A stretch of 39,714 nucleotides of DNA from Parabacteroides sp. (GTDB lineage Bacteria > Bacteroidota > Bacteroidia > Bacteroidales > Tannerellaceae), in NCBI GenBank assembly GCA_017481945.1, contig JAFUOJ010000004.1:1-39714 (forward strand). The letters are read 5' to 3'. The notes beneath the pieces were generated by a model, which made no database searches, was not told where the DNA came from, and saw only the letters and a program-made list of their open reading frames with translations. A program made the position numbers and the translations under genes. This document shows, in pieces, positions 24,632 through 39,329 of this stretch; position 1 is the first letter of the stretch; each line of letters opens with the position of its first letter.

Positions 24632-25102
24632 TTAATCCAGCACCATATCACTCCTTTTCTCTAATAGCTCGGCAAAATCGAAAGAATCCATTCGGGCATA
24701 CCTGATTTTGTCTGCTAAATACCTGACACGCAGATTTATATTACAAATCAATAACAGAGAAAAAGAAAGTTCCGTATAAGAAGTTTTAGGATTTTTACAG
24801 GGAGCCATCCATAAATTAAGAACTTTCAGTAACAATTCCGGGTCATCCGGTTCTAACAGGAGTTCACCTAATACCGTCTCCTGACGTACATAGTCCACAA
24901 ACAGTTGCCGTTCACTCTTAATCAAGCGAATCAAAAATAACCGATAGGCGGTTGTCAATCCGGACCAGTCAGAGAAAGCCACTCCAAACGTCCGGTTACG
25001 AAAAATGCCCCTTTCTGCAAGAGGCATTTCCTTTAAGTACAAATTAAACTTGCAAACGGACGGTTTTGCACCCTTAAAGAGTGCGATTAATTGATTTTTC
25101 AT
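24632..25102 (-). CDS. Hypothetical protein
   Basis: A 156-aa protein of mixed hydrophobic and charged helices with no signal peptide; it is probably cytoplasmic. I recognise no domain. The N-terminus reads MKNQLIALFKGAKPS, and Cys residues occur at scattered positions without a CxxC pair. It sits between the exporter adaptor at the right and the HU-like gene at the left, 79 bases after the adaptor, so it could be the last gene of the peptide locus or belong to neither. A hairpin covers the leader just before its start. Confidence 0.6.
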   Translation of the reverse strand: MKNQLIALFKGAKPSVCKFNLYLKEMPLAERGIFRNRTFGVAFSDWSGLTTAYRLFLIRLIKSERQLFVDYVRQETVLGELLLEPDDPELLLKVLNLWMAPCKNPKTSYTELSFSLLLICNINLRVRYLADKIRYARMDSFDFAELLEKRSDMVLD

Positions 25103-25181: not shown

Positions 25182-26129
25182 TTAAAATCCTTCTCCCAGT
25201 ATCTTTCTCAGTGGTTGGAAGAGACGCTCTATCAAACGCAATTCTTCAGTTACGATTTCAGCCGTAGCCTTCATTTCCTGCATAGCCGGAAGACAGATTC
25301 CGTAATTGGTGGTCAGTCCGTTCGGGAAGACAATCTCCACCAAATAATTGCCTTCCAATGGAACTAACGAAACTGACGATACCCGTCCCTCGATAATTCC
25401 AAATTCCTGATCCGGATAATTACTAAACCGAACGATTACCCGTTGTCCTTTTCTTACTTTTCCTGAACGGGCTACCGGTAGCTGAGCGCGACCTATCCAT
25501 TCCCCCGGCTCTTCCGGTACGATTCGGGCAAATAATTCACCGGCTGTTACATATAAATTCGGATACCCCTGGCGCAGCAACTGTACCCGTCCGGCTACCG
25601 GGGCTTCCACACAATAACTCATTTCCCATTCCCTGACTGCGGCCAACAGCTGTCCGACTGCAGCCCGATAATCTCGCTCTGCCGGATCTTTGGTTGCCAA
25701 TGCCGTATAAGCCGATTGAATATGACCCAGTCGCCACACATCTTGTAGTAAATAAAAAGGTAATTGCTCCGGCTCTTTCTCCAGTCGAATTAATAATTTC
25801 TTTAAACGAAACACATCTTCCGTCTCTGCTGCATTCTCTATTACGGCCAACGGACCTCTTTCACCGACCTGTTGTCCGTCAGTAACAAACAAATGACTTA
25901 TTCGTCCGGAGGAACGTGCTACCACCTCTACCACCGGATTCCGACTGCTAAGCGTCATCTCAGCCTCTATTGCGTCCGGAAACCGAAAAAAATAGCTGCC
26001 GATAAATAATGTGAATACGATGAGAAACAGAATCGTAATTCCCCAGCGTACAATCCATGAAGGCACAGCTCCCATGATCTCCTGTACCTCTTCGCTTCTG
26101 AGTTCTATTTCTTTCTCCTTTTTCGCCAT
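25182..26129 (-). CDS. HlyD-type secretion adaptor
   Basis: This 315-aa inner-membrane adaptor links an ABC exporter to the outer membrane. The single transmembrane helix is at about 29-48, preceded by a charged cytoplasmic stretch. The biotinyl-lipoyl-like halves are recognisable as VEVVARSSGRISHLFVTDGQ and EAPVAGRVQLL. Between them is a short helical hairpin; the beta-barrel part follows, to about residue 275. The protein is shorter than classical HlyD because the hairpin is short. It starts six bases after the stop of the C39 exporter gene, so the two form one machine. The local base composition is near 50% GC (60 of 120 bases counted at 25441-25560). Confidence 0.9.
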   Translation of the reverse strand: MAKKEKEIELRSEEVQEIMGAVPSWIVRWGITILFLIVFTLFIGSYFFRFPDAIEAEMTLSSRNPVVEVVARSSGRISHLFVTDGQQVGERGPLAVIENAAETEDVFRLKKLLIRLEKEPEQLPFYLLQDVWRLGHIQSAYTALATKDPAERDYRAAVGQLLAAVREWEMSYCVEAPVAGRVQLLRQGYPNLYVTAGELFARIVPEEPGEWIGRAQLPVARSGKVRKGQRVIVRFSNYPDQEFGIIEGRVSSVSLVPLEGNYLVEIVFPNGLTTNYGICLPAMQEMKATAEIVTEELRLIERLFQPLRKILGEGF

Positions 26130-26135
26130 CTCTTT

Positions 26136-28328
26136 TTAATTCCCCAACTCCAATTGGTTCTTGACTAACTGATAATATTTCCCTTTTCGAGCCGTCAGCT
26201 CCTCATGAGTACCCTCTTCTGCGATTCGTCCTTTGTCCAATACGACAATATGGTCGGCATCTCGTACCGTACTCAACCGGTGAGCTACAACTACTACGGT
26301 ACGTCCCTCGTAAAATTGGTGTAGATGTTCCATAATCGCCTTTTCGTTGTTGGCATCCAAGGCATTGGTCGCTTCGTCCAAGAAGATAAATGCCGGATTC
26401 TTGTAGACAGCCCGTGCAATCAGGATCCGTTGTCGTTGCCCCTGGCTCACTCCGTTTCCCTCCATACCGATTTTGGTATTGTATCCTAACGGTAACGAGT
26501 CGATAAACTCTCGGATGTTTGCAACCTCTACCGCATGACCTAACAGTTCTTTGTCTATGGTCTCTGCACCCACTGCGATATTCCGGGCAATTGTATCAGA
26601 GAAGATAAATCCATCCTGCATCACACAACCTGTATGTGCCCTCCATACATGCGGATTTAAATCCTGCAACCGGATCTTTCCAACCCGAATTGTCCCCTTA
26701 TTAGGAGTATAGAAACCTAAAAGCAACTTGATCAGTGTTGTTTTCCCGCTTCCGCTTGCCCCGACGATTGCTGTTACCTTCTTTTCCGGAATGGTCAGAT
26801 TCACCTGTTCCAAAACATAATTCCGGTCAGCTCCGTCATAGCTGAAACAAATATCTTCGATGTATAAGGTTCGATCTTCCGGTATCTTATTTGTTTTCAG
26901 TGCCAATGTCTCCTCTTCATCCTCTTTGCCATGAATCTCTCCTAATCGTTCCAAACTAATTTTTGCGTCCTGAAACGAACGGGCAAAACCGATAAACTGC
27001 TCCACTGGAGCCGTCAGTTGCCCGACAATGTAGGTTAATGACATCATCATCCCCAGCGTCATCTCTCCGGATACCACAGCCCGAGCGGCCAAGAAAGAGA
27101 TCAGAATATTGGTTGTCTGGTTAAAAAAAACAGAACCTAACTGTTGGTACTGTTGTAAAGCCAATCCCTTAATACTGATTTTAAACAGTTTTACCTGAAT
27201 CCGTTCCCATTCCCAACGTTTCTCCGTCTCACAATTATTCAGTTTGATTTCCTGCATACCTGTGACCAATTGAAACAGATTACTCTGTTCTCCGGCTGCC
27301 TGTTGAAACCGTTTGATATCCAACTCACGCCGATAGCGCATAAAAGCTAAGATCCAAGTGACATACAGACCGTTCCCGACTAAAAATAACCCCAATATAG
27401 TCAAATCATAATAGGCAAGAACCACCCCGAAAACTAAAAAGTTGACAAAAGAAAACAAAGTAGAGATCGAAGAACCCGTCATAAACGACTCGATTCGATT
27501 ATGATCTCCGATACGCTGCATGATGTCGCCCACCATTTTGGTATCAAAGAACTGCAAGGGCAATCGCATAAGTTTTGCTAAAAAGTCAGATATTAGAGCG
27601 ATATTGATTCGCGTATTGACGTGCAACAAGATCCAACTACGAATAAAATCAACCGACAATTTCGCGATGAAAATTACCAATTGAGCAATCAAGATCAACG
27701 TAATAAAACTCAAGTTTCCGTCCCGAATCCCCGTATCGACTAAACTTTGAGTCAAAAAAGGAAGGATCAATTGCAAAAGGCTGGCAGTCAACATGCCCAA
27801 TGCCAATTGAAACAACTCCTTTCGATACGGTGTCAGATAACGGAAAAAGAAAGACAGTTTTCCCCCCTTTCGTTCCTTTTCTCCCTCGTAATCGTAGAAG
27901 TCAGGTCCCGGTTCCAAAAGCAGTGCCGTCCCCGTATCTTTACCCTCGACCCGGGTACTGCACCAACACCGTTCCAATTCCCGTTCTGTATATGCTACCT
28001 TTTTGGTCGCCGGGTCTGCAATGTAGTATTTCCCGTTTTTTACTTTGTACAATACCACAAAATGCCTTTGGTTCCAATGTAGAATACAAGGGAGTGGAAC
28101 CTCTTTACGTAGTTGCTCCAAAGAGATTTTCACTCCCATTGTACGAAATCCGATCTGTTCTGCTGCGTCACTGATTCCCAGCATGGACACCCCTTCGCGT
28201 GTGATAAATGCTCGTTCTCGCAAATATTGGATCGAATAATTTCGACCGTAATATTTAGCAATCATCCGGAGACAGGTTGGACCACAGTCGGCTGACTCTA
28301 ATTGGTGATAGTGAGGGAAAAAAAGCAT
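26136..28328 (-). CDS. C39-peptidase ABC exporter (PCAT)
   Basis: This 730-aa transporter cuts GG-type leader peptides and exports the mature peptide using ATP. The N-terminal C39 peptidase has the triad C15 (in SADCGPTC), H89 and D105, with Gln9 as oxyanion residue. The membrane domain spans about 160-460 with six hydrophobic segments. The nucleotide-binding domain has Walker A GASGSGKT (523-530), signature SQGQ (628-631), Walker B FLDEA (649-653) and H-loop H683. All catalytic positions are present, so it should be active. The matching substrate is the GG-leader precursor at 30950-31159. It starts six bases after a propeller lipoprotein gene. Confidence 0.95.
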   Translation of the reverse strand: MLFFPHYHQLESADCGPTCLRMIAKYYGRNYSIQYLRERAFITREGVSMLGISDAAEQIGFRTMGVKISLEQLRKEVPLPCILHWNQRHFVVLYKVKNGKYYIADPATKKVAYTERELERCWCSTRVEGKDTGTALLLEPGPDFYDYEGEKERKGGKLSFFFRYLTPYRKELFQLALGMLTASLLQLILPFLTQSLVDTGIRDGNLSFITLILIAQLVIFIAKLSVDFIRSWILLHVNTRINIALISDFLAKLMRLPLQFFDTKMVGDIMQRIGDHNRIESFMTGSSISTLFSFVNFLVFGVVLAYYDLTILGLFLVGNGLYVTWILAFMRYRRELDIKRFQQAAGEQSNLFQLVTGMQEIKLNNCETEKRWEWERIQVKLFKISIKGLALQQYQQLGSVFFNQTTNILISFLAARAVVSGEMTLGMMMSLTYIVGQLTAPVEQFIGFARSFQDAKISLERLGEIHGKEDEEETLALKTNKIPEDRTLYIEDICFSYDGADRNYVLEQVNLTIPEKKVTAIVGASGSGKTTLIKLLLGFYTPNKGTIRVGKIRLQDLNPHVWRAHTGCVMQDGFIFSDTIARNIAVGAETIDKELLGHAVEVANIREFIDSLPLGYNTKIGMEGNGVSQGQRQRILIARAVYKNPAFIFLDEATNALDANNEKAIMEHLHQFYEGRTVVVVAHRLSTVRDADHIVVLDKGRIAEEGTHEELTARKGKYYQLVKNQLELGN

Positions 28329-28334
28329 ATGATC

Positions 28335-29510
28335 TTAATTCAATGAGAAAAACATCACCCAATCGTTTGCTTCTTCATCTATTGTTTGATAATCAATTCC
28401 TTTCAAAAAAGGATAGTTCTCTTGATAATTAGGATCGTCTTGTTCCAATTCAGTTATAGCCTCTTTTAGAGCCGCTGTATTAACCAATTTATAAAATTCC
28501 TCAGAAGAAAAATTAAAACCGTCCGGAACGTCATATCCTCCTAAAAGAACATTGTAAATACCTTCAAATGCTTTATTTGTGATACAAATATCATTTTTAC
28601 GATCATAGTAAACACCTATTTTAGGCTCTCTTAATGGAGGGCAAAATGTAATCCAGTCTTTTGTGATAATTAAGTCAGATAATTCAAATATAAATTTGTC
28701 ATTAGATTGATCTTTTTCCCAATTTTTACTAATCTCATTAATGGTACCCGATAAATAATCGGCAGGTATAGACTTCTCTTTGAAATCAAGTGTAGCAAAA
28801 ACACGAACCGTATCTTCCAAAAGGTAGATATGCGAATCGAAATAGTTTGTAAAGTAATATCCTTTTCCTGTTTCGGACTTTCTCAATGTATAATGATTAG
28901 ATCGAGAGTATTTGAATTGTTTCAATTTCTCTAAAGAGGGTGCACCTTCATAAATTTTATTCCCATTTTCATCATAAACAGTCACCTGATAAGGATTTTT
29001 ATAGTTGCTCAGTGCTACAATAGCCCCATCTTCACGAACCGCTATATCTCCATTTGCTACAATAGGGATTGTACGTACGTACTTACCTTCAAAATCATAT
29101 ACTTGTAATTTTGCTTTATCTCTTACATAAAGTAAATCATTAGCGAAAGCAATATTCCCTAAATAAATATATTCTTCAGGTCCCTGTCCCAATCTGTTTA
29201 TTTTGTTTATCAATTTCCCTGAATGATCATAGCGGAATATGATATTTTGTCCACCGTCTGCTACAAATAATTCATTTTTATAAACATATAAATGAGAGTT
29301 TTTACCATTGAACAACAGATCATCTCCGGTTTCCAATGGCATTAACCGAATTTTCATCCGGTTTAAAAAATCATTTACGACTTTCTTATCCGGATCAGCC
29401 ATTAAATCAACGACCAATAATTGGGGTTTGTTTTCTTTTGTCGTTTCCTTTCCACAAGAGATCAGCAGAAGAGCCAACAGGAAAATGTTGTAAAATTTAA
29501 AAGTTTTCAT
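28335..29510 (-). CDS. 6-bladed beta-propeller lipoprotein (second copy)
   Basis: A 391-aa surface or periplasmic lipoprotein. The lipobox LISC gives C19. Repeated strand groups such as DYDHSGKLI-like turns (FRYDHSGKLINKINRLGQGP) and VYDENGNKIYEG mark an NHL-like propeller of the Bacteroidales 6-bladed beta-propeller family. These are frequent beside peptide-export genes in the order, with no proven role; immunity, binding of the product or export assistance are possibilities. The gap to the C39 exporter is six bases, so they are co-transcribed. Composition is AT-rich compared with the exporter. Confidence 0.8.
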   Translation of the reverse strand: MKTFKFYNIFLLALLLISCGKETTKENKPQLLVVDLMADPDKKVVNDFLNRMKIRLMPLETGDDLLFNGKNSHLYVYKNELFVADGGQNIIFRYDHSGKLINKINRLGQGPEEYIYLGNIAFANDLLYVRDKAKLQVYDFEGKYVRTIPIVANGDIAVREDGAIVALSNYKNPYQVTVYDENGNKIYEGAPSLEKLKQFKYSRSNHYTLRKSETGKGYYFTNYFDSHIYLLEDTVRVFATLDFKEKSIPADYLSGTINEISKNWEKDQSNDKFIFELSDLIITKDWITFCPPLREPKIGVYYDRKNDICITNKAFEGIYNVLLGGYDVPDGFNFSSEEFYKLVNTAALKEAITELEQDDPNYQENYPFLKGIDYQTIDEEANDWVMFFSLN

Positions 29511-29614
29511 GTTTTATCAATTTATATTGGACATAGCCAAAAAAATATAATTCAAATTAATTTTTCTATTTAAAAATTATCATTTTTCTTCGTTAGTTCC
29601 AATGAAGAAATGAA

Positions 29615-30868
29615 TTATTGGAAAAATACAATAATAGGATTATCCTCAGGAGAAACATGTTGTAACGAATTTAGATTACCCTTTGAAGATTCAATCTTTT
29701 GTTTATCTCTATTTTCTAAAAAATTATTAACAGATAAACATGAGTAAAATTCGTTATTTGCGGTAGTCCCCCAAATCTGAAATTTATCAATAGAATTATC
29801 TATGTCATTTATTAACCCATTATTCTCTGAGATTATAGTTTTCCCATCTTTTCTAAAATATACCATTATATATTCCTTTCTGACATCTCTCATTCCATAT
29901 AAACCGGAAGTTAGATGAGCAAATAATATGTTGTTATTTCCATAGATATAATCTACAGATAAGCGATTTTCAGAACAGTTTTTCGTATAGCGTTCTTCAT
30001 ATGGCCAAGCCCAATTTCCGAAATTTATATATTTATGGGGTATTGTTTGACTTCCTGAAACACTATATATGGTATCAACAAAGGCTTCTTTAAAATATAA
30101 ATGGTCGTTTATTCTCCAAAAAGAAGATGCATCAGGGGTAAACATATAAATTCTGTCTTTCCCATAAATATATCTGTGCATATTTCCCCCGTAACCAATC
30201 TGATTCCCATATAAGTAGTTTGTATCTGTGATTTCACCATAAGAAGGGAGCAAACCTTTCTTAGATTCTTCTTTTCCGAATAATTCCCCGGTTTTACCTG
30301 AAAAACAAATTAATTTAGGATATTTTTTATCTGCAATACATTTATTGTATACCCAAATTGTATCGTGATAAATATATACGTTACTTGAATATAGATTACT
30401 TCCATTGGGTAAGCTCACTTTTCCTATAAAAGTCCCATCCACATGAAATTTCAATAGATTTCTACTGTCATTTGACAAAAAATAAATAATATTTGATTGA
30501 CTATCAACCCAATAATATAAATTCCCAAATCCATCGTCTGTGTACCCTAAAGGATCATCCCCTCTATGTCCTACTGTGTTTAAATATTTTCCTGTTTTTT
30601 TATCAAAGACAAAAAGAGGTTGTTTATGAGAAGAAACTAAAATATGATCAAAAGTTACGAATATACGAGGGTATCTTCCGATTAAAACACTATCTGAAGT
30701 TTCTAAAGGAATATAAGAAATTCTATCAAAAACTTCTGATACTTTGATATCTTTAATATCTGCCATTCCTTTTTCAATGTCAATTACATCTTTTTCTCCC
30801 GAATTACCTGAAAGACTACAGGAAATTATAAATAGCGGGTATAATAAGTATATTAAATTATTTTTCAT
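29615..30868 (-). CDS. 6-bladed beta-propeller lipoprotein (first copy)
   Basis: A 417-aa lipoprotein with lipobox IISC (C17), then propeller strands such as VFDKKTGKYLNTVGHRGDDP and FHVDGTFIGKVSLPNG. It is the paralogue of the adjacent 391-aa lipoprotein: both start with a similar DIEKG/VVDLM region followed by ISYIPLETSD or MRLMPLETGD, where the segment PLET is shared. It lies between the precursor and the second copy, 81 bases after the precursor stop. One of the two may give self-protection against the peptide; the sequence does not say which. A counted 60-base sample (30301-30360) is 20% GC. Confidence 0.8.
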   Translation of the reverse strand: MKNNLIYLLYPLFIISCSLSGNSGEKDVIDIEKGMADIKDIKVSEVFDRISYIPLETSDSVLIGRYPRIFVTFDHILVSSHKQPLFVFDKKTGKYLNTVGHRGDDPLGYTDDGFGNLYYWVDSQSNIIYFLSNDSRNLLKFHVDGTFIGKVSLPNGSNLYSSNVYIYHDTIWVYNKCIADKKYPKLICFSGKTGELFGKEESKKGLLPSYGEITDTNYLYGNQIGYGGNMHRYIYGKDRIYMFTPDASSFWRINDHLYFKEAFVDTIYSVSGSQTIPHKYINFGNWAWPYEERYTKNCSENRLSVDYIYGNNNILFAHLTSGLYGMRDVRKEYIMVYFRKDGKTIISENNGLINDIDNSIDKFQIWGTTANNEFYSCLSVNNFLENRDKQKIESSKGNLNSLQHVSPEDNPIIVFFQ

Positions 30869-30894
30869 ATATTTAAATTAGTTAACTTTTGTGT

Positions 30895-30938
30895 CTTAAA
30901 AAACAAGTAAGAGAAGGGTAATAAATACCCCTCTCTTA
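30895..30938 (-). terminator. Terminator after the precursor gene
   Basis: Minus-strand arms of 13 bases (30938-30926 and 30920-30908) pair with one G-T wobble around a 5-base loop. CTTG and six T follow. It lies 12 bases after the precursor stop, so the precursor may be made from a short separate mRNA with partial read-through. Confidence 0.65.
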
Positions 30939-30949
30939 AAAGTGAGAAT

Positions 30950-31159
30950 TTAATATGCACCTGCACATGTACAACGTTGTCCTCCTGAACTATCAGGATC
31001 TTTTGTCCAGCCACAAGTACCTGGTAAACCATCAGAGAATGTACATCCCCCTGAACATGAAGAATTACAATTGTTTTCACCTCCAATGATTAACTGCATT
31101 TCTTTCTCACTCATCGGTCGAGCGACTTCGTTTAGTCGCATAATTGATAATTTACGCAT
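30950..31159 (-). CDS. GG-leader RiPP-like precursor with six-cysteine core
   Basis: A 69-aa peptide. Leader residues 1-27 begin MRKLSIMRLNEVARPMSEKE and end in Gly26-Gly27, the signal for the C39 exporter. This matches, from memory, the natural-product precursor family called GG-Bacteroidales (TIGR04149). The predicted core, residues 28-69, holds six cysteines at 31, 35, 39, 49, 63 and 65, and many Ser, Thr and Gly. The spacing is C-x3-C-x3-C-x9-C-x13-C-x-C and it ends Ala-Gly-Ala-Tyr. It is not a known class II bacteriocin shape. The gene lies between the VKOR/thioredoxin fusion and two propeller lipoproteins, and has hairpins on both sides. Activity is unknown. Confidence 0.85.
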   Translation of the reverse strand: MRKLSIMRLNEVARPMSEKEMQLIIGGENNCNSSCSGGCTFSDGLPGTCGWTKDPDSSGGQRCTCAGAY

Positions 31160-31172
31160 AATGTTTAAATTT

Positions 31173-31180
31173 TAAAGTTA
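31173..31180 (-). promoter_or_regulatory. Near-match -7 box TAACTTTA before the precursor
   Basis: TAACTTTA differs from TAnnTTTG only at the last base and lies 13 bases before the precursor ATG. There is no -33 match. Weak evidence for a separate precursor promoter. Confidence 0.2.
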
Positions 31181-31182
31181 AT

Positions 31183-31208
31183 AAAAAAGCTATAAATGGC
31201 CATTTATA
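31183..31208 (-). terminator. Weak terminator-like palindrome before the precursor
   Basis: TATAAATGGCCATTTATA (31191-31208) is a perfect 18-base palindrome followed on the minus strand by GC and six T. The stem is AT-only with a GGCC loop, so it should be weak. The stop codon of the VKOR fusion lies inside it. Confidence 0.35.
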
Positions 31209-32754
31209 AATAATTTAAATCAATCATATCATATAGATAAGGAAATACGTATCCATTTATTAATAAAAGTGGTGTTGTTGATATATTTAATTCTTTTGAA
31301 ATCATTTTATGATTTGCTAGTTCTTTTTCTACTTCACTTGAATATATATCTAATTGATATTTCTTAATAAAAGAATCTTTGTTGTATTTCCCTTCAAGAA
31401 ACCAATCACGATAAATAGATAAGGTTTTTTCTTTATTGTGTTGATAATAAGCTGCAATTAAACATCGACCTCCATCATCCCATTTATCTCCGAATGATAG
31501 AAATATAAACTTTATTGTACAATGTTTCTTTGTGTTGAGAATAGAATCTATTTCATTGTGCTTTTTTGCACAAGGTTCACAATACGGATTAGTAAAATAA
31601 TAAATAGTATTATTATTGTTAGATCCATGGAATACAATGTTTGACTTATAATTCTTTACTGGATAAAAATTCTCTCTTTCTAATACGATGTTAAATATGT
31701 CTTTAATTCCTTTTAAACTTTTAAATTTTTGTTCGGATATTATGAGCTTTCTATGTTGTTCTATAAAGTGTGATATTTGATTTATGATAAATAATAAAAA
31801 AGTATAAATTAATCCTACTGATAAAAAGCCGAAATAATTAGTATTATACCAATATATTTTATCAGATATACAATTAATAAAGAAGATAATCCATAGTATT
31901 ATTTGTACTAATAGGCATAATGAACACCATTGTTTTATAACATATTTCTGACACCATATACTCCAAATCGTAAAAGGTAATGCGACAATATTAAAAATAC
32001 AAACAAAAATAAATATATTATTAAATAATATTAAAATTAAAATATTAGAAATGAAATAAGAAAAACCTACTTCTGCCCAGCTGAACAGATTAAAGAATTT
32101 TGAATGACTTGAATCAATTACATTTCCGCATTCACTCTTTTTTAGTAATGAATTACAAATAGTGTCTATGTATTTAGATATATTTAATTGCTTGAGTAAA
32201 AGTAGATATGAAATTATTGCTCCTCCTGTATTTGTGATGAACATTAATAAATTATATGTGTTTTTATATAATTTGTCTCCTATTCCAATAGAGGTTAATA
32301 GCGCTATTATACATATAATTAGTATAACATTTGTTGTATTTGAAAATAGATTTTTATAAAAATGTTTTTTATACTCTGGTTCTATTGAATTCTCATTTGG
32401 ATAAAGATATAAAACTACTCCAGACCAGTGCTCTAAAAAAATATCTACTGGTTGTTTTATAATTGATCCATTCCAATAATAATAAATAAAATTATTTTCA
32501 TTTTTTATGAAAATTATAAAGTTACCACCCCAGTAAATTACACAAGAATATTCTAAAAATGAAATACCTTTATTCTTGTCTTTTATATGATAGGCTTCGT
32601 TAGGAATATTGTAATCTGATAACATTTTTGATAATCCCCATAAGGTATTATTTAAGGGGTATTGATTGTAAAATAATTCCGAAAATTTCTTTGTGTGTGA
32701 AACTTTTAACAGTTTTAATACAGAAATGAAAATATTATTAAAATTCTTTTTCAT
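31204..32754 (-). CDS. C39-like / VKOR / thioredoxin fusion protein
   Basis: A 516-aa membrane oxidoreductase of three parts. Residues 20-125 resemble a C39 peptidase domain but have no Cys at the active-site position, ending in the typical segment FLEHWSGVVLYLYP. Residues 140-330 are the VKOR bundle of about five helices, with loop cysteines C200 and C209 and the active CxxC C277/C280 in WCSLC. Residues 375-516 are a thioredoxin fold with C392/C395 in YCEPC and a cis-Pro at P495 (STTP). VKOR fusions make protein disulfides by passing electrons to quinone. The six-Cys peptide next door is the obvious substrate. It overlaps the LanC-like/GT gene by four bases, and a counted 120-base sample inside it is 21% GC. 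Confidence 0.88.
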   Translation of the reverse strand: MKKNFNNIFISVLKLLKVSHTKKFSELFYNQYPLNNTLWGLSKMLSDYNIPNEAYHIKDKNKGISFLEYSCVIYWGGNFIIFIKNENNFIYYYWNGSIIKQPVDIFLEHWSGVVLYLYPNENSIEPEYKKHFYKNLFSNTTNVILIICIIALLTSIGIGDKLYKNTYNLLMFITNTGGAIISYLLLLKQLNISKYIDTICNSLLKKSECGNVIDSSHSKFFNLFSWAEVGFSYFISNILILILFNNIFIFVCIFNIVALPFTIWSIWCQKYVIKQWCSLCLLVQIILWIIFFINCISDKIYWYNTNYFGFLSVGLIYTFLLFIINQISHFIEQHRKLIISEQKFKSLKGIKDIFNIVLERENFYPVKNYKSNIVFHGSNNNNTIYYFTNPYCEPCAKKHNEIDSILNTKKHCTIKFIFLSFGDKWDDGGRCLIAAYYQHNKEKTLSIYRDWFLEGKYNKDSFIKKYQLDIYSSEVEKELANHKMISKELNISTTPLLLINGYVFPYLYDMIDLNYL

Positions 32755-34685
32755 AATAGAGTGATATATTTATTGGGATTTGACATCTTTTTATTTATGC
32801 AATAATGTTCAATAAATTCTTTCCGAGCATTTTTTGCAAGTTTATATCTTACGGAAGGAGATTGTAATAAATATTCTATTGTATTTGCTAATTCATTTCT
32901 AACAGTAGAAACTAATAATCCTGTTTCCTCATGAACAACAAGTTCTGATAAGCCCGTTGTTTTACCTACGATTAAAGGTAATCCCATCATCATCATTTCT
33001 AATGCTACATATCCAAACTCTTCGTGTAAAGAAGGAAGTACTCCTATATCACAAATTGAAAATAAATCATATAAAACTTTTTTTTCTATGAAGCCTGTAA
33101 ATGTAATCCGAGACCAGTAAGGGGTTGCTAGAGATAAGAGTTCATTAAAATTACCTTCTCCAGCAATGATTAAATGTAATGATGGATTTAGGGATATTAA
33201 TGAAACAAAAGCTTTAATAAGTAGTTCAATACCTTTTACTGTATCTAATCGTCCCGCAAAAAGAATTAATTGCTCTTTTTCTTGAAAACCATATTTTGCC
33301 CTTAGGTCAATTTTTTCATCACCTGTTAAATTTCTAAAACAGTCTTTTATACCATGTGAAATCAATGTTATCTTATTAGAAGGGATTTGGTAGAGCTCTA
33401 CTAAATCTTTATATGAATGTTGAGATATTGCAATAATTTTATCACATGAATGTAATAATTTTTTTTCTTTTTCAAAAGTATTTATTATTGATTTATATTC
33501 ATCTTCTTCAGGATTAATTAGAATCTGATGAAATTTACTTTTATTACCTAACAATTGAAAACTCCAATTTGTATAGTGAACAGTTAATATAACTTTTGAT
33601 AACGGAAATCTTTTTTTTAGTATTTGAGCTAATTCCCCTTCATGCATATGATTTAAATGGAAGAAAAGATCTTTATACATTATAAAGTAAGGATATAAAA
33701 GATAAAATATACTTTTATAGTAATATGTGTTTCCCTTTTCGATATCACTATTAAAATCCATATTTTTAATGGGAGCAATATAAATGTATTTTATTCCATC
33801 TTGTTCTTCTATTAAAAAAGAATCTGTTTTATTTGATCGTAGTTGTATTATTATAGGATTTAGGTGATTTGTTTGTATTGTTTTTACTAATTGGTCAATA
33901 TAAGTACCTATCCCATAGTTTATAGCGCGAGTTTTTTCTTCAAAAATAAAAATTCCTTTCTCTATGAAAGAATGATTTATTCCCCCTTTTGTACAAATAG
34001 TAATATTTAATAACTGTCCCCATAGGAAACCTGCAATCCCTTTGTCTAATCCAAATGAAGATATTTCTTTATCTAATTGAATATTAGAGTGTTTTAAAAT
34101 AGGAGGTAAATCTATTTTGGGGTGTTTCTCTCCCTGTAAAACCTCTATAAACAAATTCTTTAATCCAATTGGATTTTCGGGATCCTCTGAAAGATTGGCT
34201 TGGGATAAAGCTGTTTTCAAAGATTGTAGATAATTCCAGTCAAAAGGAATCTTTTCGGTTTCTCGAACTGCTAATAAACGAGCTATGACGTAAAAAGTAA
34301 GCCCTCCTAATCCTCTACGAAAACTAAGGTCTGATATTCTTAACGGATTATATTCCATAATTCGCTGGTCTACTTCCCATAGTATTTCATCTGTATCCCC
34401 CTGCATTAATCCCTGCTGTACCAAATATTCAATTCCCCAGCCAATGCCACATAGTCCATCTTCCAAATTAAAATGAAGCTCTTTATTTAGATCTTCATAT
34501 ATTGTATCCAATAACTCACTTGCAAAATTTTCATACATCTCATTTTGAGTATGACGAGCATAAACTGCTAAAAAAAGCACACACCCCATACGCCCATGAA
34601 ATAAACCAATATTTGGAATAAAACAAGCATTTAAAATTAGTCGGGATAGAGCTTGTTGAAAATTTGTAATTTTATGGATATTCAT
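32751..34685 (-). CDS. LanC-like / GT4 glycosyltransferase fusion
   Basis: A 644-aa fusion. Residues 20-230 have LanC-type helical-repeat motifs GLFHGRMGCVLFL (27-39), DGLCGIGWG (76-84), RRGLGGLTFYVIA (123-135) and GLDKGIAGFLWG (212-223). The late LanC zinc ligands (Cys and Cys-His) are absent, so a normal cyclase is unlikely. Residues 245-640 are a GT4 glycosyltransferase. It starts NYGIGTYIDQLVKT and has FAGRLDTVKG (476-485) and the EEFGYVALE motif (555-563), and resembles, from memory, the TIGR04157 family linked to GG-Bacteroidales precursors. The LanC-like part may bind the precursor leader while the GT adds sugar. It starts 36 bases after the LicD gene. Confidence 0.85.
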   Translation of the reverse strand: MNIHKITNFQQALSRLILNACFIPNIGLFHGRMGCVLFLAVYARHTQNEMYENFASELLDTIYEDLNKELHFNLEDGLCGIGWGIEYLVQQGLMQGDTDEILWEVDQRIMEYNPLRISDLSFRRGLGGLTFYVIARLLAVRETEKIPFDWNYLQSLKTALSQANLSEDPENPIGLKNLFIEVLQGEKHPKIDLPPILKHSNIQLDKEISSFGLDKGIAGFLWGQLLNITICTKGGINHSFIEKGIFIFEEKTRAINYGIGTYIDQLVKTIQTNHLNPIIIQLRSNKTDSFLIEEQDGIKYIYIAPIKNMDFNSDIEKGNTYYYKSIFYLLYPYFIMYKDLFFHLNHMHEGELAQILKKRFPLSKVILTVHYTNWSFQLLGNKSKFHQILINPEEDEYKSIINTFEKEKKLLHSCDKIIAISQHSYKDLVELYQIPSNKITLISHGIKDCFRNLTGDEKIDLRAKYGFQEKEQLILFAGRLDTVKGIELLIKAFVSLISLNPSLHLIIAGEGNFNELLSLATPYWSRITFTGFIEKKVLYDLFSICDIGVLPSLHEEFGYVALEMMMMGLPLIVGKTTGLSELVVHEETGLLVSTVRNELANTIEYLLQSPSVRYKLAKNARKEFIEHYCINKKMSNPNKYITLL

Positions 34686-34721
34686 ATATTTGGTATTCTA
34701 TGTAAATTAATCAAAAAGGAT

Positions 34722-35981
34722 CTACATTTGATCTAAAATAGTAATAGGATAATCATATTTAGGATTTTTTTTCTTCTCTAATCGATGACAATAAGGATAT
34801 ACTCGAATTTTAGTTTGCCAATCTACATATCTGGAATTTAGTACTTCTTCTGTATTTCCGGGTTGTTGAAAAACAAATCCTTCAAAATGAATATTTTCTA
34901 ATGGATATAATGCAGAATTGGGGCAAACAATCTTATTCCAAAAGACAAAATCATTTCCAACTACATTATATACCCATAAATCGATAAATGGGAAGGTATA
35001 ATCATATCCGTCTATCGTTTCTCCCTCCTCTGACCAGATTTTGTAATAATAGGTACGGGAAGAGAGTTCTAAAATCTTTCTCCATTTCAGACTGTTACAT
35101 TGGTTTAACAAGGCTAAAAATGTAGACAGATGTTTCTCTTCGATACCTAAATCGACATCATCATCCCAAGGAAGGATACCTCCCATTCGTACATACCCTA
35201 AATGGGTTCCGGCTTGTAAAATCAATGGTATACCGGAGGATTGACTTAATTCACTGAGGGTTCGCAATAACAGACGGACTTTACGTTTTCGTTCTTCTGT
35301 CCAAGAACAGTGAGATAATACGAACTGTGCCATGTTTTGTATCCGTTCAGGCCATTCCGTAAAATCAATGTCTAATTCTTTTTTTAACCAACTTACTTGT
35401 GTACAATAAACTTCTAATTGGTCTTGAGCTGTTTTACAAATGATATGATTGTCTAAACGATCTTCTATTACTTTACTTTGTAGAAGATTTATAGCTCCTT
35501 TTTGCGTTAAAAAATAAATAGAATTTCCCCATTTGTAACCTAAGAAAAAGGGTTCTCTTTTTCGTCTTTCTGCTCTATTCGGATTTTGTAAATGTATACC
35601 ACTTTCTTTTTTATGTCTTTCGTATGGGAAAAATAGATCTAAATTCTCTTCAGTAGAAAATTTTTCTGCAATATCCGTTAATTCTTTTGCTGAAATTTGT
35701 AGCTGGACGTTACTCTCTATGACCCAACAACCCGGTTCTCCGGTTTGTAGAAAATCCTCCCAAACCTGGCGATGAGCTAAATAATCTCGAATTTCCGAGT
35801 TGGACAATCGGAAGCCATACCGATTTTCATGATAGGAATAATCAATCGGTAAATCGGTCTTTATGTCTGTCGGAAAATGAATCTCTACCACTTGTGTTTC
35901 AGAATCATCCTGAGAAATCTCGATATGAAACGGCTGTGGTTGATAGACAGTTTCCGGTAATAGTATTCGATATATGTTCAT
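34722..35981 (-). CDS. GT25-like / LicD fusion protein
   Basis: This 419-aa protein joins two parts. Residues 55-180 resemble a GT25 (LPS beta-glycosyltransferase) domain: LSNSEIRDYLAHRQVW, a degenerate WVIESNVQL where the family usually has an Asp-Asp pair, and GYKWGNSIYFLTQKGAINLL (148-167). Residues 225-400 are LicD, with LGYVRMGGILPWDDDVDLGI, where W272 and D273-D277 are the metal and nucleotide site. LicD enzymes transfer phosphocholine or similar phospho-alcohols onto sugars. No in-frame ATG lies downstream until residue 217, so the start at 35981 is kept even though it overlaps the NTP-transferase gene by 77 bases. The GT25 half may be inactive. Confidence 0.82.
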   Translation of the reverse strand: MNIYRILLPETVYQPQPFHIEISQDDSETQVVEIHFPTDIKTDLPIDYSYHENRYGFRLSNSEIRDYLAHRQVWEDFLQTGEPGCWVIESNVQLQISAKELTDIAEKFSTEENLDLFFPYERHKKESGIHLQNPNRAERRKREPFFLGYKWGNSIYFLTQKGAINLLQSKVIEDRLDNHIICKTAQDQLEVYCTQVSWLKKELDIDFTEWPERIQNMAQFVLSHCSWTEERKRKVRLLLRTLSELSQSSGIPLILQAGTHLGYVRMGGILPWDDDVDLGIEEKHLSTFLALLNQCNSLKWRKILELSSRTYYYKIWSEEGETIDGYDYTFPFIDLWVYNVVGNDFVFWNKIVCPNSALYPLENIHFEGFVFQQPGNTEEVLNSRYVDWQTKIRVYPYCHRLEKKKNPKYDYPITILDQM

Positions 35982-36660
35982 TTTTTAACCATTTAATAGC
36001 TGTTGCTAACTGTTCTTTTGTATTCACGGAATACCAAGGATAGGGGTATAATTCCGAGCAATAGAGCTGCCGAATTTTTACTAAGGCTTGACAAACCTCC
36101 GGTAAATCGGCATGAGGTTCTAATAGTTGATTTAAGCGGGCGGGATTCAGGATCGACAGACCGGAACAGTAATATATGCCTCCTGCTCGCGAAAAACGAG
36201 TGACTCGTCCCTCTTCCTCTTCCATAAAATCTCCTTCAAATCCTTCCGGATGAGCTACCGGAATTTGTAAAAAAGCCGGAGCTTGAAGTTGTTGATAGAC
36301 CTTGAATAGCCATTTACAATCCAGCGGAGTTAACAAATCACAGGGTAACACCAATATCGGTTCGTCTAATTCTCGAAAAGCTGTATGAAAAATCCACCAG
36401 GCGTTTCCTTCGCCGGTCGTATCTAAGAAAGATACCTTTTGATCTTTTAATGCTTCTCGTAATAGATCGCCTTTATAACCTATGGTAACTGTGATTTGAG
36501 GGATCTGTTTTTGTAATTGTAAAAGCGAATAGTTAATCAGCGGCATTCCGCAGACATCCACCAACGCTTTGGGGATACGGCTAGTCATATAAATCAGGCG
36601 AATTCCTCTACCGGCTGCTAAAATGACCGCATGATTAAACATATTCGCTTTTTTTAACAA
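35905..36660 (-). CDS. NTP-transferase (LicC/MurU-like nucleotidyltransferase)
   Basis: A 251-aa soluble enzyme. It has the activation loop LAAGRGIR (14-21), PK at 30-31 and the metal Asp D108 in PCDLL. These define the sugar-phosphate nucleotidyltransferase fold, which includes LicC (CTP:phosphocholine), MurU and RmlA. Its place directly before a LicD gene suggests it activates the donor, for example CDP-choline or a nucleotide sugar, but the substrate is not fixed by the motifs. A second ATG at 36642 would remove six residues and is equally plausible. It begins six bases after DUF3244, and its last 77 bases overlap the LicD gene. Confidence 0.82.
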   Translation of the reverse strand: MLKKANMFNHAVILAAGRGIRLIYMTSRIPKALVDVCGMPLINYSLLQLQKQIPQITVTIGYKGDLLREALKDQKVSFLDTTGEGNAWWIFHTAFRELDEPILVLPCDLLTPLDCKWLFKVYQQLQAPAFLQIPVAHPEGFEGDFMEEEEGRVTRFSRAGGIYYCSGLSILNPARLNQLLEPHADLPEVCQALVKIRQLYCSELYPYPWYSVNTKEQLATAIKWLKNEHISNTITGNCLSTTAVSYRDFSG

Positions 36661-36666
36661 GGATTC

Positions 36667-37041
36667 CTATTCTTCACACGTAAACTCACCTGAAAAGAGA
36701 AGATCTCCATAACAGATGGTAATCGTATAGGGTGCTGTCGCTGAAGCAATCGGAATACAAACGGTGGTTGGTGAAACATACGTCTCAACTTGTTGTTCAC
36801 CGCTATTCAGATTCGCGATCGTGACAGTTGCTACACTCGGTACGTCTGCAAAGGTTACATAAACCTTCTGATTCTCTACCCAAGCACGCACGGGTAAAAG
36901 ACTGCGTTGGTCTTCCGAACCTCTTTTTTCTGCTTCTAACTCAATATCTTTTGTATCTGTAATCTTTGCAGATAGAGAAAAAGAAAATGAGCACAGATTC
37001 CATAATAGGAATACCATTAACAATAAATGATTTGCTCTCAT
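36667..37041 (-). CDS. DUF3244 family protein
   Basis: A 124-aa exported protein: a signal peptide (about 1-25) and then a small beta-sandwich rich in Val and Thr, with SEDQRSLLPVRAWVENQKVY, typical of DUF3244. Function unknown. In Bacteroidales this family often lies next to TPR proteins such as the one upstream. It is the first gene after the -7 box at 37070-37077 and is six bases before the NTP-transferase gene, so it should lead the peptide operon. Confidence 0.8.
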   Translation of the reverse strand: MRANHLLLMVFLLWNLCSFSFSLSAKITDTKDIELEAEKRGSEDQRSLLPVRAWVENQKVYVTFADVPSVATVTIANLNSGEQQVETYVSPTTVCIPIASATAPYTITICYGDLLFSGEFTCEE

Positions 37042-37220: not shown

Positions 37221-39329
37221 CTAATACCACTTCTTCAGGATTACGTCTAAATAATTTCCTTTTTCGGTAGGAAAACAGCGTTTTCGGATGTCTGCTTTAA
37301 TCTTTGTAGTCATGTCTGCTCCTAATCCCAACAGATAGGAAACTTTGGTGGTTTTTACCCCTAATCGGGTCAGACAACAGACGTGAATTTCACGTTCAGT
37401 CAGAGAGGTCAAGTCGGACAACTGTTCTACAAACCCCGGAAACACCAGTCTGAAATTGTTCATAAATTCCTCCCACTCTTTTTCAGTCCAAGCTCTGGAA
37501 GAGACAATTGTTTGTGCTTTACGTAAGCTGGGAATGTTTTGAATCAGATTCTCTTGCCATTGTTCGTATTTACGACATTGGTTCCGAGATTCCTCCAACC
37601 GTTGTTGCATCTCTCGGTTTATCATTTCTTTTTTCTCGCTTAATTGTTTCAAAGAGGTCGCTAAGGCATCTTTCTCCAAAGACAACTCTTCCATCTGTTT
37701 TTGAAGTCGTTCTGTCTCTGCCAATTTCTCTTCGTTGCTTTTCAGTTTATTCAGTTGTTTCTTTTGTTCTTCCATTAATTGTTCGTTTTGGTCCATTATC
37801 TGCTTTTTCTCCGACATTAGTTGATCATTTTCTGAACAAAGTTGTCTCTTCTCTTCAATCAATAGGTCTCGTTGTTTTTCTATGGTATGAATTTGTGTCG
37901 AATAAAGATTTTGTAAACTCTGATTCTCATCCTCCAATTGGGAAATGGTAATCTGTTGTTGTATTTTTAACTCCTCCAATTTCATTTGGATATTTACCAA
38001 TTTCTCCTGAATCTGAGAGATAGTTTTATCTTTCTCTTGAATTTTTTGTTGATTATTCTCTATGGTGATTTGAGAGTCTTTTATCAGTTGTTGAGCTTCT
38101 TCATTTTTTAGCTCTTGTTGTACCAATCGTTTGTGTAGCCAGAGATAGACAAAAAGGGCAATAATTAAACAAACTAAGCCCCAAACAGCCCAGCTGTAAT
38201 TACGAACTTTTATTGCATGTAATTGCTTGGTATGGTAATTTTCTAAACGAGCTTTATTGTATAGTGCCTCTACTTTGGCCAATTTTTGTGGATTATACAC
38301 CTGTTCGATCGAATCACGTAGCATGACAAACTGTTCATTATAAGTGACAACCTGGTCAAGATCTCGCTTGGCTTGATAAATTTTATATAATAGACGGTTT
38401 ACGCTACATTTAATATAAAGATCTTCATTAGACAACGCTTTCTTTGCATAATACAAAGCAGAATCTAATCGATGTAATTTTTCATATAAACTACCGATGG
38501 AATAATAACGAGAGGCTAAGAAGAGTTCCCTATTTGAGAAAGCCAAAGACTCTTTATGTAGAGCCAAAGATTTCTCGTATTCCCCTTTCTCTCCATATAA
38601 AGTAGCTAAAGAGGACAAAACATAAGGCTTTTGCCAGTCCACTTTTCCCAACTCTGCTAAATCTAAGGCCGGTTTCAAATAAAAGAGTGCGCTATCTGAA
38701 TTCTCTAATCGTAACCATGCGTCTCCTATATTATGCAAAACATTTACTAATCCAACGGTATCTTTGCTTTGTTGGTACGCTTGGTAGGCCTCTTTATAAC
38801 TTTCTAAACTTTTTAATTTATCAAAGTGTTTCCGATACAAGGTTCCTAAATGGTTACAAATACGGGCTTGCAAGCCATAATCGGAGGTCTCTTTTGCCGC
38901 CTCTTTGGCTTGTAAATAGGCATTCAATGCCTCTTCGAAAATATCTAAATCCGAAAGAACACGGCCTTTGCAATAGTAGGCTTGGGCTTTCCGGTGGGGA
39001 TCTTTCCGTTTAGCAAAATATCGAACGGCAATATCAATTATTGAATCAGAAGTATGTTCTACATAGTTTTTATCCCGAGCTTGGGTGACGAATAGGCACC
39101 AGGTGGCATATTCTTTTTTCGTTAACTGTTCCGGGTGCTTTACGGATTCCAGTAACTTTAATGAACTATCTGCACAACAGGTCATCATTGTTTCAGCCTC
39201 GTTTAGTAACGGTGCGATTGATTCTCGTTGACATCCTATCAATAATAGGAGAAGGAGAGAGATAAATTGAAGTTTAAAGTATCTGTTTATATATGCCATA
39301 ATACATTTGTGTCTATGTTTAATTTTCAA
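37221..39329 (-). CDS. TPR / transmembrane / coiled-coil protein with HTH-like C-terminus
   Basis: This 702-aa protein (692 aa if the ATG at 39299 is used, which gives a normal signal) has a lipobox-like LIGC at residue 33. TPR repeats span about 65-345, for example EEALNAYLQAKEAA and EYEKSLALHKESL. One transmembrane helix is at 379-398, a long Glu/Lys/Gln coiled coil at 400-605, and a C-terminal segment (640-690) with LTEREIHVCCLTRLGV resembles a LuxR-type HTH. The periplasmic TPR part could sense a ligand and the cytoplasmic end could bind DNA, as in membrane one-component regulators; that function is inferred. It lies upstream of the peptide operon, beside DUF3244 and the palindromes. Confidence 0.75.
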   Translation of the reverse strand: MKIKHRHKCIMAYINRYFKLQFISLLLLLLIGCQRESIAPLLNEAETMMTCCADSSLKLLESVKHPEQLTKKEYATWCLFVTQARDKNYVEHTSDSIIDIAVRYFAKRKDPHRKAQAYYCKGRVLSDLDIFEEALNAYLQAKEAAKETSDYGLQARICNHLGTLYRKHFDKLKSLESYKEAYQAYQQSKDTVGLVNVLHNIGDAWLRLENSDSALFYLKPALDLAELGKVDWQKPYVLSSLATLYGEKGEYEKSLALHKESLAFSNRELFLASRYYSIGSLYEKLHRLDSALYYAKKALSNEDLYIKCSVNRLLYKIYQAKRDLDQVVTYNEQFVMLRDSIEQVYNPQKLAKVEALYNKARLENYHTKQLHAIKVRNYSWAVWGLVCLIIALFVYLWLHKRLVQQELKNEEAQQLIKDSQITIENNQQKIQEKDKTISQIQEKLVNIQMKLEELKIQQQITISQLEDENQSLQNLYSTQIHTIEKQRDLLIEEKRQLCSENDQLMSEKKQIMDQNEQLMEEQKKQLNKLKSNEEKLAETERLQKQMEELSLEKDALATSLKQLSEKKEMINREMQQRLEESRNQCRKYEQWQENLIQNIPSLRKAQTIVSSRAWTEKEWEEFMNNFRLVFPGFVEQLSDLTSLTEREIHVCCLTRLGVKTTKVSYLLGLGADMTTKIKADIRKRCFPTEKGNYLDVILKKWY

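Follow-up and report, generated by a model that had tools for sequence, protein, structure and literature searches.

The window analysed here, contig JAFUOJ010000004.1 of a Parabacteroides sp. genome taken whole (positions 1-39,714; GCA_017481945.1), contains a group of genes that we read as a locus making and exporting a secreted peptide which is rich in disulfides, glycosylated and further decorated by a LicD-type enzyme. We assign this reading a probability of roughly 55%, and its parts differ in strength: the product is very probably an exported disulfide peptide, it is probably glycosylated, and the chance that it carries a phospho-alcohol is about even. All named genes lie on the minus strand with short gaps (25182-37041; open reading frame (ORF) list and profile scans), in a source genome of 2.79 Mb in 45 contigs that is rated 83% complete. 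The locus points to a route in Bacteroidales by which peptides mature through oxidation and glycosylation rather than through radical SAM chemistry; it also suggests that phospho-alcohol transfer of the LicD/Fukutin type may decorate peptides.

The precursor has a 27-aa double-glycine (GG) leader, MRKLSIMRLNEVARPMSEKEMQLIIGG, followed by a 42-residue core with six cysteines (spacing [3,3,9,13,1]). It scores just above the cut-off of the bacteriocin_sig model (16.3 bits, cut-off 15.7, E 0.011). GG-leader precursors with six cysteines are found repeatedly beside VKOR genes. Two such VKOR-adjacent precursors, L094:5043-5225 and L141:8401-8637 (loci are cited by L numbers), pass the leader model TIGR04149 with 33.0 and 33.7 bits (cut-off 25), and no radical SAM enzyme was detected near them in the stretches examined; the NCBI label 'rSAM-modified RiPP' (radical SAM-modified, ribosomally synthesized and post-translationally modified peptide) for the shared leader therefore looks too narrow. 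Of 44 non-redundant cores, 6 end in C-x9-C-x(5-16)-C-x-C, where shuffling predicts 0.93; the L100 precursor, which is outside this set, ends in the same way. Arrays of GG-leader peptides also lie beside VKOR at L107:5700-13333 and L108:10669-13191. Several of these peptides have spacings like C-x4/5-C-x4/5-CC-x4-C-x(2-13)-C, which we take to be an inhibitor-knot-like pattern; two of them were scanned against Pfam and gave no match.

The comparison covers 39 loci chosen for VKOR or LicD relatives, so that their VKOR content is no finding, and contig ends truncate several of the stretches. By our criterion, 37 of the loci contain a VKOR ORF, the others being L165 and L099, the latter with no more than the thioredoxin end of such a gene. 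Within 9 kb of these 37 VKOR genes, a radical SAM relative occurs twice (L143 and L150). A rule-based search near VKOR returned 48 same-strand GG-leader ORFs at 28 loci, a set that includes ORFs with 0, 1 or 3 cysteines, some of these probably spurious (number of ORFs in brackets: 0 (3), 1 (1), 3 (1), 4 (12), 5 (1), 6 (29) and 8 (1) cysteines). The cysteine number is even in 42 of the 44 ORFs with at least two cysteines; the two odd cases are an ORF in L095 that looks spurious and a core in L143 next to a radical SAM gene. Near radical SAM genes (26 loci given, 12 with a detected radical SAM), the same rule returned 12 ORFs with 3 (3), 4 (6) or 5 (3) cysteines, hence even in 6 of 12. The Fisher p value for this contrast is 0.0006, or 0.0003 without the loci having both enzymes and one identical copy, both values being too small owing to the relatedness of the loci. 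The rule missed the precursors of L100 and L142 (GRG; six cysteines), which are outside the counts, and at L103, L105, L156 and L158 no convincing precursor was found. With radical SAM relatives detected near just 2 of 37 VKOR loci and even cysteine numbers prevailing there (42/44 versus 6/12), the relatives show a recurrent Bacteroidales sub-type in which a VKOR oxidase appears to replace radical SAM. We rejected a strict split into VKOR or radical SAM loci, since L143 has both, L150 has a radical SAM gene at a distance of about 6 kb, and a GT4 (glycosyltransferase family 4) fusion in L099 contains a CxxxCxxC motif. The latter protein (L099:4494-6518) shows the motif by eye in its C-terminal part and is a possible GT4/radical SAM fusion, in the same stretch as the VKOR-type gene end.

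Within the window, no frame of at least 150 codons contains the radical SAM motif CxxxCxxC, and the TIGR04148 maturase was not found in the genome (83% complete). LanM is absent from the 12 window proteins scanned; the remaining window ORFs were assessed visually, and no search for LanM or LanB was made in the genome. The first-pass annotation had likewise seen neither radical SAM nor LanM; the lack of the usual maturase that it singled out is supported here and is not unique, since VKOR-type clusters recur. It is very improbable that the product is a GG-Bacteroidales radical SAM peptide with a maturase acting in trans or encoded past the contig end, an explanation that draws on the resemblance of the leader to TIGR04149 (18.6 bits) and of the GT4 half to TIGR04157, on a closest LanC-GT4 fusion (L092) beside a radical SAM/SPASM protein, and on the window being a complete contig from an incomplete genome that encodes one SPASM protein elsewhere. 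We dropped it given the TIGR04148 negative, the lack of CxxxCxxC in the window frames and the even-cysteine core; the stretches around L100 and L141, in which no radical SAM was detected, speak against it as well.

The grouping of these genes is more than chance, as seen from a parallel gene order in L141 and from the recurring six-cysteine GG precursors beside VKOR. In L141, from another genus of the family, the order is regulator, GT2, LanC, GT4, VKOR, precursor, TlpA-like thioredoxin, exporter and HlyD; in the window it is regulator, DUF3244, nucleoside triphosphate (NTP) transferase, LicD, LanC-GT4, VKOR, precursor, two beta-propellers, exporter and HlyD (intergenic gaps from NTP transferase to HlyD: -77, 36, -4, 44, 81, 104, 6 and 6 nt). 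L100 and L147 have regulator, VKOR, precursor, LanC and GT4 ahead of exporters 82% identical to that of the window, but there LanC and GT4 flank VKOR and precursor on the side opposite to that in the window; across L036, L100, L101 and L147, exporter identity to the window is 79-82%. The G+C content of VKOR (0.235), LanC-GT4 (0.293) and one propeller gene (0.295) contrasts with that of the exporter (0.442) and HlyD (0.473), at 0.380 overall. Together with the gene orders, we read this as a regulator and exporter that were kept while the tailoring cassette was exchanged. VKOR, LanC and GT4 occur together without detected radical SAM in the window, L100, L141, L142 (a short contig, the stretch lacking an exporter) and L147. 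The closest LanC-GT4 fusion, in L092, is a radical SAM neighbour.

The oxidase is a VKOR family member (PF07884, 47.8 bits, cut-off 27.5) with both the loop cysteine pair and the CXXC motif, and its cysteines 200, 209, 277, 280, 392 and 395 are invariant in all 20 aligned proteins (our pick from the 37 VKOR loci, the window's protein included). Its residues ~1-135 are C39-like: a profile of the 20 proteins matches the PCAT1 peptidase domain (about 7e-8), and the segment that follows also matches PCAT1, which by homology would place both in the cytosol; no cysteine of the C39-like domain is conserved across the alignment. Additional N-terminal domains on Bacteroidetes VKORs, unnamed there, are mentioned in the available text of a 2015 phylogeny (PMC4555120). 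Hydropathy gives six hydrophobic segments in the window's protein and between 4 and 7 across the 20. Lysine plus arginine averages 3.45 in the N-flank, 4.85 in the Cys-loop, 2.45 in the CXXC-loop and 3.55 in the C-flank, whereas the three loops on the opposite side, which are shorter, average 0.80, 0.05 and 0.50. The solved bacterial VKOR/thioredoxin protein (4nv2/4nv6), whose active site faces the periplasm, has K, R and R in a loop that is almost free of these residues here. From charge and homology only, we propose a cytosol-facing, leader-guided VKOR, and this topology stays a proposal because the hydropathy counts vary from 4 to 7 segments. A viral contig scan with the VKOR alignment gave seven pattern matches and no relatives.

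The glycosyltransferase of the locus is fused to a LanC-like half of about 240 aa, which is recognized by Pfam below the cut-off (0.00058). Among 17 aligned LanC-like domains, only G29, L56, G75, L76, G78 and Y130 (L100 numbering) are invariant, mainly as glycine motifs, and no cysteine or histidine is, so the zinc ligands (C..CH) are not conserved. The same loss is reported for Bacteroidales LanC-like proteins elsewhere (PMC10352776, in the text available). Because of these missing residues the LanC-like half is unlikely to be a cyclase, and a lanthipeptide made by it, which the LanC-like similarity would suggest, was dropped as having a next to negligible probability; no LanB or LanM partner is present among the window proteins scanned, the genome not having been searched. 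The GT4 half is a close relative of TIGR04157, just under its cut-off and aligned over 2-397 of 406, and it has the E-x7-E motif. With the whole LanC-GT4 fusion as query, 29 of 123 family genomes (own included) have a match at 1e-24, to either half of it. A tree of 24 GT4 domains (6 VKOR, 9 radical SAM and 9 neither, the last label meaning that BLAST found no radical SAM in the fetched stretch, with L099 counted as VKOR) shows no clustering by maturase: the VKOR and radical SAM labels need 5 changes each, the shuffled mean is 4.9, and starred branches force at least 3. The smallest starred set with the window pairs it with L092 on a long branch. Because the labels do not cluster, the glycosylation module is common to both types, and it seems to move between maturase types. 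LanC-like domains are also found joined to a GT2-like N-terminal part, in L037:8529-10187 (Pfam) and L038:6290-7840 (N-terminal letters only).

The decoration is predicted from the GT25-like/LicD fusion and the adjacent NTP transferase. The LicD half passes PF04991 clearly (67.1 bits, cut-off 22.6) with its acidic motif PWDDDVD intact; the Asp positions are identical in all four aligned fusions, and the best PDB match is Fukutin-related protein (4.6e-6). The GT25-like half stays under the PF01755 cut-off (22.1 bits, cut-off 24) and matches procollagen galactosyltransferase 1 weakly (0.02 as a single sequence, 0.0004 as a profile). It is probably not a working glycosyltransferase here, because the E-D-D of that enzyme is replaced by E-S-N in the window, L034 and L046 (E-N-D in L117), and we rejected a working GT25 half on this ground. 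The NTP transferase is listed with a TTG start, an ATG at codon 7 (36642) being more likely; its PDB matches are MurU (1.1e-11, residues 10-224) and LicC (4.9e-6, residues 10-94).

Relatives of the LicD fusion are rare (G337 among 393 genomes of the order, G421 among 123 of the family and G720 among 395 of the phylum; the sets partly overlap and each holds the own genome), and two further 36-bit matches in the family set cover just 64 and 67 LicD residues. All three relatives (L034, L046 and L117) have a GG-leader gene no more than 5 kb from the fusion. In L034 (G337), 21 nt after LicD, there is an SDR protein fused to a CTP_transf_like domain (PF01467, 2.5e-19), which scores 83.6 bits against the glycerol-3-phosphate cytidylyltransferase model (cut-off 165.4); in the opposite orientation lie relatives of LanC and GT4, a protein that is GT2-like judging from its N-terminal letters alone, and a GG-leader gene of 207 aa. 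L117 (G720) encodes a GG-leader DUF6973 protein, the LicD fusion, which adjoins this GG-leader gene, an IspD-family cytidylyltransferase (272.5 bits, cut-off 253), a C39 peptidase-containing ABC exporter (PCAT) and HlyD; BLAST found no GT4 or LanC relatives there, the Pfam scan covering only a minority of the other L117 ORFs. L046:3496-11071, the sole relative in a scan of genome contigs with LicD, holds a VKOR split over two frames, a precursor, an exporter, GT4 pieces of 41 and 89 aa and a LicD fusion without about its first 86 residues, and looks like a related cluster in decay.

Related LicD proteins thus have nucleotidyltransferases of three families as neighbours, two of which are cytidylyltransferase families, and we favour cytidine diphosphate (CDP)-activated donors and a phospho-alcohol because of the cytidylyltransferase-family neighbours in L034 and L117. 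A disulfide-bonded, glycosylated peptide that carries no phospho-alcohol is the less likely account: here the NTP transferase, nearest by sequence to MurU and sugar-1-phosphate transferases, would make a nucleoside diphosphate sugar for GT4, and the GT25-like/LicD protein would be idle or perform another transfer. L141, with a GT2 protein in place of NTP transferase and LicD, would fit it; the constant LicD aspartates, the 77-nt overlap of the NTP transferase with LicD and the cytidylyltransferase-family neighbours speak against it. LicD proteins elsewhere act on envelope polymers, and a plain bacteroidetocin-like disulfide peptide, with GT4, LicD and NTP transferase as mere neighbours serving a cell-envelope glycan, would be in line with this. 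Bacteroidetocins need only a peptide, a transmembrane (TM) protein, an oxidoreductase and an exporter (PMC6671954, text available). We regard this explanation as improbable, given that in L100, L141 and L147, too, LanC and GT4 have the regulator on one side and the exporter on the other, and that the LicD fusion keeps close to a GG-leader gene in its three relatives, even adjoining it in L117, where BLAST finds neither GT4 nor LanC.

Several observations weigh against the decorated, glycosylated disulfide peptide that we prefer. The precursor (18.6 bits against 25 for TIGR04149) and the GT4 half (385.1 against 400 for TIGR04157) are both below the line of their models. The closest LanC-GT4 fusion, that of L092 (43% over residues 11-597), lies beside a radical SAM/SPASM protein, VKOR and radical SAM stand together in L143, and one SPASM-domain protein is encoded elsewhere in the genome (contig C2). 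As to the decoration, the NTP transferase matches MurU nearly over its full length and LicC over the first third only, and might make a nucleotide sugar. Choline kinase (PF01633) was not found in the own genome (83% complete), which counts against phosphocholine, not against other alcohols. The L117 GT25-like half does pass its Pfam cut-off (36.5 bits), the L117 IspD-family protein, passing the IspD cut-off, could be a housekeeping copy, and in L046 the LicD match contains an in-frame stop, the VKOR and GT4 frames look broken and BLAST finds no relative of the window's NTP transferase. Structure predictions were too poor to use, with a mean predicted local distance difference test (pLDDT) of 39.7 for the LicD fusion (2-row alignment) and 40.1 for the VKOR protein (single sequence). 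Finally, the product chemistry is inferred from genes throughout. The first proposal, of a disulfide-bonded peptide carrying a sugar and perhaps also a phospho-alcohol, is supported in outline by comparison: the disulfides by the VKOR partner and the even cysteine counts, the sugar by a GT4 close to TIGR04157 that many loci have next to GG precursors, and the phospho-alcohol, with less weight, by the intact PWDDDVD and the cytidylyltransferase-family neighbours in two relatives, set against an NTP transferase nearer MurU than LicC.

The pathway that we propose starts with the precursor, made with its GG leader. The LanC-like/GT4 protein would add a sugar to the core in the cytosol, its LanC-like half serving for binding without catalysis. 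The NTP transferase would activate a small alcohol or polyol phosphate, its product most likely being a CDP derivative, and LicD would move the phospho-alcohol onto the sugar or peptide, aided by the degenerate GT25-like half. Subsequently, the VKOR-thioredoxin protein, whose motifs, like the cysteine parity of the cores, are seen directly, would form three disulfides, with the degenerate C39-like domain binding the leader. PCAT would then cleave after GG and, judging from its family, export the peptide with HlyD and an outer-membrane channel that is not encoded here. A more specific version is rather unlikely as a whole: a secreted peptide with a phosphodiester resembling that of teichoic acids or dystroglycan, in which the phospho-alcohol sits on a sugar linked to the peptide, and with disulfides formed by a leader-guided, cytosol-facing VKOR before leader removal and export. 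By analogy with bacteroidetocins, a role in antagonism between bacteria is likely, this being the least certain step.

The closest known systems are the bacteroidetocins and the TIGR04149/04157 clusters, with glycocins as an analogy. Bacteroidetocins (class IIf; Coyne et al. 2019, PMC6671954, in the text available) share with the window the GG leader, a 42-aa mature peptide, multiple cysteines (four in bacteroidetocins), a dedicated thiol oxidoreductase, a PCAT exporter and a Bacteroidota host. The window agrees with their pattern of a GG leader, a core of ~42 aa and at least two cysteines. It differs in its six cysteines, in a leader of 27 aa (15 aa in bacteroidetocins A and B), in its HlyD and sugar/LicD enzymes, and in a single C39-like/VKOR/thioredoxin fusion instead of separate genes for a five-TM protein and a thiol oxidoreductase; 'glycosyl' does not occur as a word in the available text of that paper. 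The GG-Bacteroidales radical SAM clusters (TIGR04149, TIGR04148 and TIGR04157) and the LanC-containing biosynthetic gene clusters BGC3-5 (PMC10352776, main text) have the same leader type, a TIGR04157-like GT4, LanC-like proteins without zinc-ligand motifs and, in most, PCAT. The window lacks any radical SAM or pseudo-radical SAM that we could find, has a VKOR oxidase instead, and adds LicD and NTP transferase; VKOR, LicD, disulfide and thioredoxin never occur in that main text. The glycocins Thg and Org, with three disulfides each (PMC12457901, text available), are alike in PCAT leader removal, a glycosyltransferase, thioredoxin-like enzymes and the combination of disulfides and sugar, while they are cleaved after GK rather than GG and the window differs in its GT4, VKOR membrane oxidase, HlyD and LicD; this is an analogy, not kinship. 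Among the locus proteins scanned, the only glycosyltransferase domains are GT4 and GT25-like, with no GT2 of the SunS type. That type is the one that glycocin transferases belong to. The LicD half shares the motif G..L..R.G.I.PWD.DvDlgi with LicD and Fukutin-related phospho-alcohol transferases, from which it differs by its fusion to a degenerate GT25-like domain and its place in a peptide cluster. The parts are thus known; the combination, LicD above all, was not found by word search in the open-licence literature among the matches listed.

Coordinates of the genes of the locus and its flanks (positions in the window)
Feature	Position	Strand	Basis and remarks
TPR protein, probable regulator, upstream end	37221..39329	-	TPR_12; lipobox-like N-terminus by eye; BLAST relatives at upstream cluster end in L100, L141, L147
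DUF3244 small protein, signal-like N-terminus	36667..37041	-	DUF3244 3.5e-6; L100 also has a DUF3244 protein beside the regulator
NTP transferase (NTP_transf_3 / NTP_transferase)	35905..36660	-	77-nt overlap with LicD gene; MurU best PDB match
GT25-like/LicD fusion	34722..35981	-	GT25-like 0.00015, LicD 3.2e-18
LanC-like/GT4 fusion	32751..34685	-	LanC-like 0.00058, GT4 3.4e-36
Membrane thiol oxidase, degenerate C39-like + VKOR + thioredoxin	31204..32754	-	VKOR 2.1e-12
GG-leader precursor, 69 aa	30950..31159	-	ORF list and leader profiles
Six-bladed beta-propeller lipoprotein (DUF4934/DUF5128)	29615..30868	-	Pfam scan
Six-bladed beta-propeller lipoprotein (DUF5128/DUF4934)	28335..29510	-	Pfam scan
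C39 peptidase-containing ABC exporter (PCAT)	26136..28328	-	Peptidase_C39 2.8e-36
HlyD-type membrane fusion protein, short form, 315 aa	25182..26129	-	Profile scan
156-aa flank protein	24632..25102	-	L100 has a 48% identical protein at the same place

Every gene of the first-pass annotation was found at its place and on its strand. The Pfam scan assigned no family to the 156-aa flank protein, and a plasmid search gave no match. The two beta-propeller lipoproteins (28335-30868) and the DUF3244 protein (36667-37041) lie inside the span and were absent from the earlier gene list. Relatives of the beta-propeller lipoproteins recur across many of these clusters, and an immunity or surface role is possible for them.

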